39,128 nucleotides of DNA from an uncultured Coriobacteriaceae bacterium (GTDB lineage: Bacteria; Actinomycetota; Coriobacteriia; Coriobacteriales; Atopobiaceae): the NCBI GenBank assembly GCA_902797175.1, contig CADBRX010000065.1:1-39128 (forward strand). Reading direction: 5' to 3'. This document shows, in pieces, positions 5,921 to 30,478 of the stretch. Numbering within the stretch: position 1 is the first letter of the stretch; each line of letters starts with the position of its first letter. The notes below the pieces were generated by a model. It searched no databases and was not told the DNA's origin. It was given only the letters and a program-made list of their open reading frames with translations. A program made the translations under genes and the position numbers.

Positions 5921-5952
5921 GCACTCTTTTACCGCGATACAAGAGCACATCT

Positions 5953-5989
5953 GCCCCGTTTGACATGAACGCCTCATGTCAAACGGGGC
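5953..5989 (+). terminator. Hairpin after the SDR gene
   Basis: Perfect 16-bp arms (5953-5968 and 5974-5989) enclose a 5-base loop, 33 bp after the SDR stop codon. No T-tract follows, so termination is likely but not certain. The upper stem contains the half-site TGACATGA, which recurs in the dyad at 6025-6043. Confidence 0.6.
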
Positions 5990-6024
5990 AATTAGCCTTG
6001 AAATCGGCTCGGATCAGCTGAAAT

Positions 6025-13141: not shown

Positions 13142-13209
13142 CTGACTCACAAGGGTCCCACCCCTTTGAGTTCAAAATGACTCAAAGGGGTGGGACCCTT
13201 GTGAGTCAG
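13142..13209. terminator. Long perfect palindrome with GGGTCCCACCC core
   Basis: Perfect 30-bp arms (13142-13171 and 13180-13209) enclose an 8-base loop. The right arm includes the stop codon of the hydroxyacid dehydrogenase, and the left arm begins 15 bp after the ABM gene. Each arm is itself a hairpin: ACTCA pairs with TGAGT and AAGGG with CCCTT. The two arm loops are complementary (TCCCA and TGGGA). A related element lies at 29284-29347. Bidirectional termination between convergent genes is the simplest role. Confidence 0.75.
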
Positions 13210-14312: not shown

Positions 14313-14810
14313 ATGCACATCCGAACGTCAACCGAGCGTGACTTCGATCGCATCATGCAGATCTACGACCACGCTCGCAACTTCATGGCAGCCACCGGAA
14401 ACCCCAACCAATGGGGACCCAACCAATGGCCACCAGCGGAGCTCATCCACCAAGACATCGCCGTCAGCAAGGGATACGTCTGTGAACACGACAATCGAGT
14501 GGTGGGCGTCTTCTTCTATGACCAGGGATATCGCATAGAGCCAACCTACGATCACATCGACGACGGTCGATGGATGGGCGACGAAACCTATGGCGTGGTG
14601 CACCGCATCGCCTCGGACGGTTTGGTGCCTGGTACGGGAAGATTCTGCCTTGAGTGGGCCTTCGAGCAATGCGGACACCTGCGCATCGACACGCACGGTG
14701 ACAACGTCATCATGCAGAACCTCCTGCGTAAGCTGGGCTTTGTCCACTGCGGGACCATCTACGTGCACGAGGACAACGACCCGCGCCTCGCCTTTGAGAA
14801 GCTCTCGTAG
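14313..14810 (+). CDS. GNAT-family N-acetyltransferase
   Basis: This is a 165-residue acetyltransferase of the GNAT superfamily. It opens with MHIRTSTERDFDRIMQIYDHARNFMAATGNPNQW, typical of one poorly characterised subgroup. GYVCEHDNRVVGVFFYD follows, then a late RIDTHGDNVIMQNLLRKLGFVHCGTIYV that includes the LxKLGF signature after the acetyl-CoA helix. The ATG at 14313 follows GGAGAGGTGCTCC. The acceptor substrate is unknown. It is divergent from the hydroxyacid dehydrogenase and is followed at once by the repeat block. Confidence 0.88.
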   Translation: MHIRTSTERDFDRIMQIYDHARNFMAATGNPNQWGPNQWPPAELIHQDIAVSKGYVCEHDNRVVGVFFYDQGYRIEPTYDHIDDGRWMGDETYGVVHRIASDGLVPGTGRFCLEWAFEQCGHLRIDTHGDNVIMQNLLRKLGFVHCGTIYVHEDNDPRLAFEKLS

Positions 14811-14832
14811 GAACGAGGCGCTGGACGGCGGC

Positions 14833-14976
14833 GCGACAACGGTTGCATGCGAGTTCAGCACGGCGCGATTCGCCGGCGTCGCGACAACGGTTGCATGCGA
14901 GTTCAGCACGGTGCGATTCATCACCGGGGCGACAACGGTTGGATGCGAGTTCAGCACGGCGCGATTCGCCGGCGTC
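14833..14976. repeat. Three tandem 48-bp repeats (unit A)
   Basis: Three exact-length copies lie at 14833-14880, 14881-14928 and 14929-14976. Each begins GCGACAACGGTT and continues ATGCGAGTTCAGCACGG, then GCGATTC. Copies 1 and 2 have TTGCATGC where copy 3 has TTGGATGC, and copy 2 diverges near its end. The array starts 22 bp after the acetyltransferase stop. Unit A is partly the reverse complement of the adjoining unit B. Confidence 0.93.
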
Positions 14977-15236
14977 GCGACAGCGACGTCGCAGCGAATC
15001 GCCCGGCTGGTTGTCTGAGCATCCAACCGTTGTCGTCCCGCTGTCAGTCCGGACGTAGCAGAACCCCGCCGGCGTCGCGAAAGCGACGTCGTAGCGAATC
15101 GCCCGGCTGGCTGTCTGAGCAGGCAACTGTTGTCGTCCCGCTGTCAGTCCGGACGTAGCAGAACCCTACCTGCGTCGCGACAGCGACGTCGCAGCGAATC
15201 GGCCGGCTGGTTGTCTGAGCATCCAACCGTTGTCGC
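14968..15236. repeat. Tandem 100-bp repeats (unit B), 2.7 copies, inverted relative to unit A
   Basis: The period is exactly 100 bp: copies start at 14968, 15068 and 15168, and the last is cut at about 15236. Each copy contains GCGTCGCGA, AGCGACGTCG, GCGAATCG, GGCTGG, TGTCTGAGCA and TGTTGTCG or CGTTGTCG. The first two also have CGCTGTCAGTCCGGACG. The segment GCATCCAACCGTTGTCG (15019-15035 and 15219-15235) is the exact reverse complement of the start of A copy 3 (14930-14946). The block fills the gap between two convergent genes, and I see no credible gene in it. Confidence 0.93.
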
Positions 15237-15265
15237 CCTTTAGCAGCTCATGTGGTTGACGCGTC

Positions 15266-16417
15266 CTAGGCAAACAGGGCAGCGGTCTTCTCCATGCGCT
15301 CGATGACGCCCACGCCAAACGGGCAGCGCTCTTCGCAACCGCCACAGGCAATGCATTCGTCAGCATGGTGGTCAAGCGCCAGGTAGTGGTCGCGCACGAG
15401 AGCCGGCACCTCTCCACCCTTTGCCACCTGCACCTCGGCAAGGTCATAGAACTTGTTGACCTGTGCCACGCTGATGCCCGTAGGACACGGTGCGCAGTGG
15501 CCGCAATAGGTGCAGAGACCCGTCGCGTTGTTGTGTGGAGCAGAAGCGAGCACGCTCGCATAGTCTCGCTCGTCCTCAGATGCTTCGCAGTACGCTGCAT
15601 CCGACTCGAGGTCCGCCACGCTGCCAAAGCCTGCCATGACGCTTGCCACGGCAGGTCGCGTCAGCGCATAGTGAATGCACATGGACGGGGTGAGGGCCAC
15701 GCCAAAGGGGCTGCGCTCGGCATCGAGCAGCCTTCCTCCCGCAAAAGCCTTCATGACGGTCAGCCCCACATCAGCGCGCTCGCAGGAGCGGTAGAACGCA
15801 AGCCTGTCGGCGTCAAAACCCGCATACTCGTCGCCTGCCGAGCTAGACAAGGTGTTGATGTCGTAGTCGCCTGGCTGCATGTCATAGGCAGGTTTGATGG
15901 AGAAGAGCATCATCTCCACCGCATCCTGCTCCACGGCATAGCGTCCGCACACGGCACTATGCGTGGACATGCCGATGTGGCGGATGGTACCCTCAGCCTT
16001 GAGCTGCTCGACAAAGTCGCGATACGGCCCCTCCAGGCAACGCTTGAGCTCGTCAAGGTCATCGATATAGTGCATCATGCCCAGCTCGACGTGGTCCGTG
16101 TGGAAGCGCGTAAGCAGGTCATCGAAGGCGACCTTGCACGCCTCCACGTCACGCGTGCGCACATACTGACCGTTCTGCCACGTAGAGCCGATGTGCCCCT
16201 GCACAATCCAGTGTCCCGGATTCTCCGCACAGGCGTCTCCCAGGCGCGTCCTGACCTCGGGATCGCTCATCCAGCAGTCCACGATGTTGACGCCCAGCTC
16301 GGCCGCACGCAGCGTGATGGCGCGCGCCTCCCCCGCACTCATGCGGTCCAGCCATTCCCCGCCATAGCCAATCTCGCTGACCATGAGCTCTGTCTTTCCC
16401 AGACGGCGATAATTCAT
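15266..16417 (-). CDS. Aldo/keto reductase-like protein with C-terminal 2[4Fe-4S] ferredoxin domain, degenerate active site
   Basis: This is a 383-residue protein with an AKR barrel (about 1-300) followed by a ferredoxin-like tail. The tail has CTYCGHCAPCP and CIACGGCEERCPFGV, which would bind two 4Fe-4S clusters. In the barrel the usual DTAxxY reads IVDCWMSD, so Asp47 remains but the catalytic tyrosine position is Asp52. The usual TK lysine region reads WIVQGH. Only the histidine (GMMHYID, H116) is clearly kept. It may therefore not be a normal NADPH reductase. The ATG at 16417 has GGGAGGACAC upstream; that motif would be coding if the ATG at 16429 were used. It lies 27 bp downstream of another AKR gene, in one operon. 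Confidence 0.88.
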   Translation of the reverse strand: MNYRRLGKTELMVSEIGYGGEWLDRMSAGEARAITLRAAELGVNIVDCWMSDPEVRTRLGDACAENPGHWIVQGHIGSTWQNGQYVRTRDVEACKVAFDDLLTRFHTDHVELGMMHYIDDLDELKRCLEGPYRDFVEQLKAEGTIRHIGMSTHSAVCGRYAVEQDAVEMMLFSIKPAYDMQPGDYDINTLSSSAGDEYAGFDADRLAFYRSCERADVGLTVMKAFAGGRLLDAERSPFGVALTPSMCIHYALTRPAVASVMAGFGSVADLESDAAYCEASEDERDYASVLASAPHNNATGLCTYCGHCAPCPTGISVAQVNKFYDLAEVQVAKGGEVPALVRDHYLALDHHADECIACGGCEERCPFGVGVIERMEKTAALFA

Positions 16418-16444
16418 GTGTCCTCCCACAAATAATGGTTTTAT

Positions 16445-30420: not shown

Positions 30421-30478
30421 GCAAAGGGAACACGCCCTCCCGAGCCAATACCGACTCGGGAGGGCGTGTCCCCTTTGC
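30421..30478. terminator. Long inverted repeat, bidirectional terminator
   Basis: The 24-bp arms (30421-30444 and 30455-30478) have one mismatch and a 10-base loop. They lie between the convergent paralogue 3 and MBL-fold genes. The AAAGGG/CCCTTT ends resemble those of the other long palindromes, but the self-folding arm structure is absent. Confidence 0.75.

Follow-up and report, generated by a model that had tools for sequence, protein, structure and literature searches.

Palindromic repeats of the REP, BIME and REPIN type carry GTAG or CGTC tags, and REP stems are 5-13 bp long (PMC3733652). The Correia elements of Neisseria (CREE or NEMIS) are inverted repeats of approximately 105-155 bp with a conserved core; RNase III binds or cuts their transcripts, variants stem from deletions and tandem duplication, and the terminal repeats are conserved and accompanied by target duplications (PMC2649163).

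The element described here comes from an uncultured Coriobacteriaceae bacterium and lies in a 39,128-nucleotide stretch of DNA that was analysed as a whole, hereafter the window. Like REP, BIME and REPIN sequences, it is a short intergenic hairpin, often downstream of coding regions, dispersed at low to moderate copy number, sometimes clustered and found in several phyla. It differs from REP in an outer stem of 22-26 bp, arms that are unrelated between copies, an asymmetric internal loop and the lack of a link to RAYT. With CREE it has in common an inverted-repeat structure with a conserved core, as well as duplication variants, but CREE have conserved terminal repeats, whereas the terminal arms of this element are locus-specific in the genus and only the inside is conserved. 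We file the element as neither REP nor Correia, and by analogy would take REP and the RNase III-regulated Correia elements as its closest working models.

Integron attC sites are folded hairpins located after a stop codon, with arms defined mostly by structure, a variable apical part and conserved unpaired bases. A single-stranded DNA hairpin recombination site of the attC kind would resemble the element in general anatomy: both are placed after stop codons and have locus-specific arms, a variable apical part and conserved unpaired bases. The conserved letters of attC are at the stem base, whereas those of the element are near the middle, and neither the attC triplet GTTRRRY/RYYYAAC nor any other tag was found at its stem base. 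The neighbours are chromosomal genes, such as those for aldo/keto reductase and presumed nrdD, with one fixed neighbourhood per locus and no cassette array seen. We consider this explanation, already weakened by these differences, very improbable.

One hairpin with duplicated halves between convergent genes

The repeat array lies in the 455-bp gap separating two convergent genes, for a GNAT-type acetyltransferase and an aldo/keto reductase. A Pfam search with the 165-aa acetyltransferase gave no match. The features of the locus, in window coordinates, are:

14313..14810, + strand: GNAT-type acetyltransferase, 165 aa, upstream gene (ORF; GNAT match to PDB 2pc1, E=2e-13)
14829..14876, + strand: A1, extra left half, with arm, 5' core half and inner 5' strand to near the tip
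14877..14924, + strand: A2, second extra left half
14927..15038, no strand assigned: complete hairpin, A3 + B1, with outer stem, core and apical stem (MFE -85.0 kcal/mol)
14937..15028, no strand assigned: 92-bp unit common to unlinked loci of the window's genome; flanking stem bases locus-specific
14945..14956, + strand: 5' half of the conserved core, GCGAGTTCAGCA
14979..14982, no strand assigned: hairpin tip, loop GACA, near the breakpoint common to the left-half and right-half duplications
15012..15020, + strand: 3' half of the conserved core, TGTCTGAGC
15067..15166, + strand: B2, extra right half plus a 28-bp linker
15167..15238, + strand: B3, another extra right half, with an arm that is the perfect complement of 14927-14946
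15266..16429, - strand: aldo/keto reductase with a 4Fe-4S domain, 387 aa, downstream convergent gene

The original prediction, made from the sequence of the window, described 48-bp and 100-bp repeat families meeting head to head around a dyad. The repeats are where it placed them and their periods are exact. In brief, TRF reported, without indels, a period of 48 at 14826-14982 (3.3 copies, score 251) and a period of 100 at 14967-15235 (2.7 copies, score 468). The inner dyad pairs, GCGATTCG with CGAATCGC and GCGTCGC with GCGACGT, also lie at the coordinates given for them. The outer arms do form an inverted repeat, which is longer than the 17 bp claimed: against B1 it covers 25 nt at 92% (14922-14946/15019-15043), and against B3 it is perfect over 20 nt (14927-14946/15219-15238). 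Exact repeats reach a length of 20 when inverted and 40 when direct, more than in any of 60 dinucleotide-preserving shuffles, where the maxima were 16 and 12, respectively. GGATGC/GCATGC had been named as the one base that sets A3 apart from A1 and A2; since A2 and A1 are 87% identical and themselves differ at several bases, the A copies differ in more than this base.

The two repeats are instead the left and right half of one hairpin, each amplified on its own side of the tip. The repeats and the dyad thus make up a single hairpin element, the left and right halves of which are tandemly duplicated with breaks near the tip. The hairpin lies soon after a gene's stop codon at this locus. In the sister genome G001 a single hairpin lies between the same two genes, from which we infer that the array in the window grew from one element. 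Unrelated loci of other genomes (L178, L186, L213, L034 and L068) likewise have full hairpins with half-copies beside them, so that the array of the window is an instance of a process that recurs. It should be noted that the assembly holding the window (194 contigs, 81.6% complete, 4.35% contamination) could affect the array itself, though half-copy arrangements were found elsewhere too. Duplications of left and right halves that break at the tip would directly document that a hairpin provokes genome instability.

At L178 we suspected that one core had inserted into another; this locus is a full hairpin with flanking half-copies. Several loci of genome G258 have a full hairpin and, after it, a single right half-copy, as if the two had been copied together as one unit (for example C7:55741-55818, C7:149043-149122 and C10:22828-22907).

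Distribution and anatomy of the hairpin family

The family to which the window hairpin belongs is dispersed, and its members share a conserved core, a variable apical stem and an outer stem of near-fixed length. Elsewhere in the same genome, at unlinked loci, the unit at 14937-15028 has copies that are 92%, 87%, 87% and 80% identical to it over 83-92 bp. What stays constant among these genome-mate copies is two short stretches only, GCGAGTTC(C/A)GCA and TGTYTGAGC, which face each other and form the asymmetric internal loop. A two-half pattern with a free gap gave 36 copies in 6 of the 18 genomes of the genus, and none with the reversed control. The core was found in 72 of 248 Coriobacteriia genomes, representing 39 of 111 genera, again with zero matches to the reversed pattern.

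The first long exact pattern had no match in the multi-phylum contig set. With the core, the scan of these contigs gave at least 119 stretches, where approximately 7 chance matches are expected for the whole scan by uniform-composition arithmetic. Going by the contig titles, one MAG of the Planctomycetes has at least 56 homogeneous copies, and among the matches listed there are 15 copies in Latescibacterota, 2-6 in Omnitrophota and 3-7 in Lachnospiraceae. The cultured strain Adlercreutzia hattorii 8CFCBH1 (G301) has 27 exact copies. The two core halves nearly always occur together. No core was found in the viral contigs searched. With the covariance models of Rfam 15, neither the window nor four genome-mate loci nor 20 cross-phylum loci had a relevant match; the matches obtained in permissive mode were spurious ones of plant-miRNA type to a long hairpin, far below gathering scores. 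None of the catalogues searched describes this hairpin family.

The copies elsewhere and the compensatory changes described below bear out the original prediction that the element is non-coding, structured, evolving and dispersed, and that it goes beyond a simple terminator. Its fallback, a chance local duplication, presupposed among other things that related genomes have no copies and that copies show no compensatory changes; such copies and changes were both found.

The core has the bipartite consensus GCGAGTTCMGC ... TGTYTGAGC, comprises approximately 20 fixed bases and forms the conserved asymmetric internal loop. The apical stem ranges from approximately 3 to more than 20 bp, and its sequence is lineage-specific and common within a lineage. 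The outer stem is almost fixed in length, 22-26 bp depending on lineage, while its sequence differs per locus, with three or four types of Watson-Crick pair at almost every position. Watson-Crick pairing at outer-stem positions is 81%, compared with 38% when partners are shuffled. The arms played no part in detecting copies. In the genus, pairing stays at approximately 0.9 up to position 22 and then falls to 0.64, 0.55, 0.45, 0.42 and 0.33; within the paired stretch there is a two-base internal mismatch at positions 4-5. Elsewhere the stem ends at 22-23 in the Latescibacterota genome G288, at 23 in G231, at 26 in G258 and at 25 in the planctomycete. The distal arms are locus-specific in the genus, and the planctomycete copies have conserved arms. 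We considered that the core inserts into the loops of pre-existing terminators; the sharp, uniform stem length speaks against a simple insertion of this kind, in which the palindromes would be of arbitrary length.

The original prediction also called the element BIME-like, which stands by analogy only: GTAG and CGTC tags are lacking, the stem is approximately twice as long as that of REP, and RAYT/Y1 transposase genes are absent from five copy-rich genomes. Among 33 copies of the genus there are no conserved letters at the stem base, where CGTC occurs in 6 and GTAG in 2; position 20 is nearly always G or C, without a fixed letter or tag. PF01797, the RAYT/Y1 transposase family, is absent from G089, G104, G285, G122 and G182, which carry 11-25 copies each, though RAYT presence and flanking serve as a membership criterion for GTAG REPs only. 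No core lies within approximately 1.5 kb of a Y1 gene, the exception being a half-core at the distant edge of L291. Mobilisation by RAYT/Y1 is not supported, as the transposase is absent from these copy-rich genomes and Y1 genes are not flanked by cores.

Position, strand and change at gene ends

Gene-end placement was measured in the Coriobacteriia, using ORFs of at least 150 aa, called by simple ORF heuristics outside the window, and a distance limit of 60 nt. For copies of the genus, a stop codon lies within this distance on the core-complementary strand in 72% and on the core strand in 28%, compared with 6% for random positions. The distance from stop codon to element is mostly about 27-40 nt. 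In Coriobacteriia outside the genus the orientation bias is weaker (48% versus 27%). The preferred orientation suggests that the mRNA usually bears 5'-GCUCARACAGUCC...GGAACUCGC-3' soon after the stop codon.

The mismatches and the stop-codon orientation give contradictory indications of strand. In the variable arms, outside conserved positions, G:T and A:C mismatches are about equally frequent, and a one-strand RNA is thus not supported by a G:U excess in the arms. In and near the core, the conserved mismatches are G:T when read on the core strand, opposite the mRNA strand, which points to a DNA hairpin or to that other strand. Taken together, a one-strand RNA accounts for these two observations less well than a DNA hairpin or constraints that act on both strands. 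Close core pairs in opposite orientation, always minus then plus, were seen at C178:1287-1501, G006:C48:104577-104966, G011:C175:42570-43030, L109 and L176; the pair on G006:C48 reflects the convergence of two genes that both have an element of their own.

Ordinary terminators that carry the tip motif by chance, with the window array as a chance local duplication, would share the gene-end position, and plain terminator hairpins do follow the same gene in other species. The intrinsic, bidirectional terminators of the genus likewise have near-perfect stems. They lack the core, and in the window's genome the arms of plain hairpins range from 13 bp (the search minimum) to 28 bp instead of being fixed. 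For the core this explanation is refuted by its recurrence across phyla, approximately 20 fixed bases long, with zero matches in the reversed-pattern controls; the fixed stem length also speaks against it, as does the lack of a U-tract directly after the stem, where the T fraction is 0.26 on the mRNA strand and 0.20 on the other strand. We regard it as improbable as a whole, and terminator activity of the complete hairpin as possible. Plain long palindromes without a core also occur at gene ends of the window, with short loops, at 30421-30478 (24-bp arms) and 5952-5990 (17-bp arms).

At the window locus, the core is kept between G000 and its sister species G001 despite five double compensatory changes in the arms. 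In brief, eight stem pairs differ, five of them changed on both sides and three on one side. Three substitutions and one indel, all of them compensated, separate the orthologous gene ends L088+ and L093+, as read by eye, and at other orthologous gene ends the core is likewise kept while the arms change. The divergence of orthologous arms roughly matches that of four-fold degenerate sites in the adjacent gene, with complementarity kept; we had considered that arms evolve faster than neutral, and rejected this on account of the rough equality. The gene that we take to be nrdD, assigned from its protein sequence without a database match, has a strong hairpin after the stop codon in nearly all of 14 species, with differing arms. 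Some of these hairpins have this core, some another apical part and some neither.

In G012, G013 and G015 (L308, L314 and L307) the nrdD 3' end has another bipartite apical motif, ACGCGCTC ... GTCGCGCTTA, on long locus-specific stems, as if several core types share one site.

Possible function and spread

Based on these observations, our favoured account is that the element acts as a hairpin at mRNA 3' ends and, in addition, spreads as a unit of core and apical stem, at low copy and in the manner of REP or Correia elements. We hold this view tentatively and give it a little less than an even chance. RNA polymerase transcribing the adjoining gene, which at the window locus is the minus-strand aldo/keto reductase gene, would run into the hairpin sequence soon after the stop codon, so that the transcript includes it. 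The duplex of roughly two turns may then block read-through by RNA polymerase and/or 3' exonucleases, or be cut by a double-strand-specific nuclease. The asymmetric loop is a putative protein site, which would give the element its specificity. Core and apical stem could now and then be copied to other gene ends by some enzyme. Arm pairing would afterwards be kept by selection or arm-to-arm conversion, and the extra halves would have arisen as side products when replication slipped or the DNA broke at the hairpin.

For an mRNA-end hairpin we count the unlinked copies, the cross-phylum core with zero controls, the sharp stem end, the arm pairing, the double changes, the core kept at orthologous gene ends, the stop-codon orientation, the recurrent half-copies and the nrdD hairpins. 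Against it we count the missing U-tract, the equality of G:T and A:C in the arms, the core G:T opposite the mRNA and the weaker bias outside the genus; in addition, no mobilising enzyme was found, and no exact empty site for the element was seen.

The main rival is a mobile hairpin of REP/MITE type that acts at the DNA level only. Here a recombinase that recognises hairpins would copy core and apical stem into palindromes at gene ends, a position that would merely be harmless. This would agree with an apical stem and inner arm common to unlinked loci of one genome whose distal arms differ, with orthologous gene ends that have different core types (L005 versus L078) or none, and with the homogeneous planctomycete copies, at least 56 in one genome. 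The arms without G:T/A:C strand bias and the G:T in the core also favour it. However, no ORF family recurs beside the copies as a possible autonomous partner, and the distribution of the Y1 transposase given above speaks against it. The uniform stem length is hard to obtain from pre-existing palindromes, and the core has been held for long at orthologous sites. On balance we find such a DNA-only hairpin unlikely.

A wider form of the mRNA-end reading, which we put forward as a rather doubtful proposal, is that the family represents an undescribed cross-phylum class of gene-end hairpins. A dedicated factor would read the asymmetric loop and the duplex length of 22-26 bp, not the sequence, while arms drift and the unit spreads. 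If a host factor does read loop and duplex length, it would be a new player in gene-end processing or hairpin mobilisation in Coriobacteriia. An odd local repeat is in this way tied to an element that is widespread and apparently uncatalogued, and whose stem is ruled by length and free in sequence. Many Coriobacteriia are gut bacteria, and the family supplies hundreds of natural variants for testing.

The genome also harbors another, separate palindrome family, TGACTCAAAGGGGTGGGACCC(TTGTGAGTCA), which occurs as inverted pairs at 13142-13209 of the window, at C57:9778-9822, at C66:489-533 and at many other places in G000. The window's genome has 55 matches, which make up approximately 30 palindromes, and 17 further species of the genus have none; this suggests a species-private, recently spread family of REP/MITE type.
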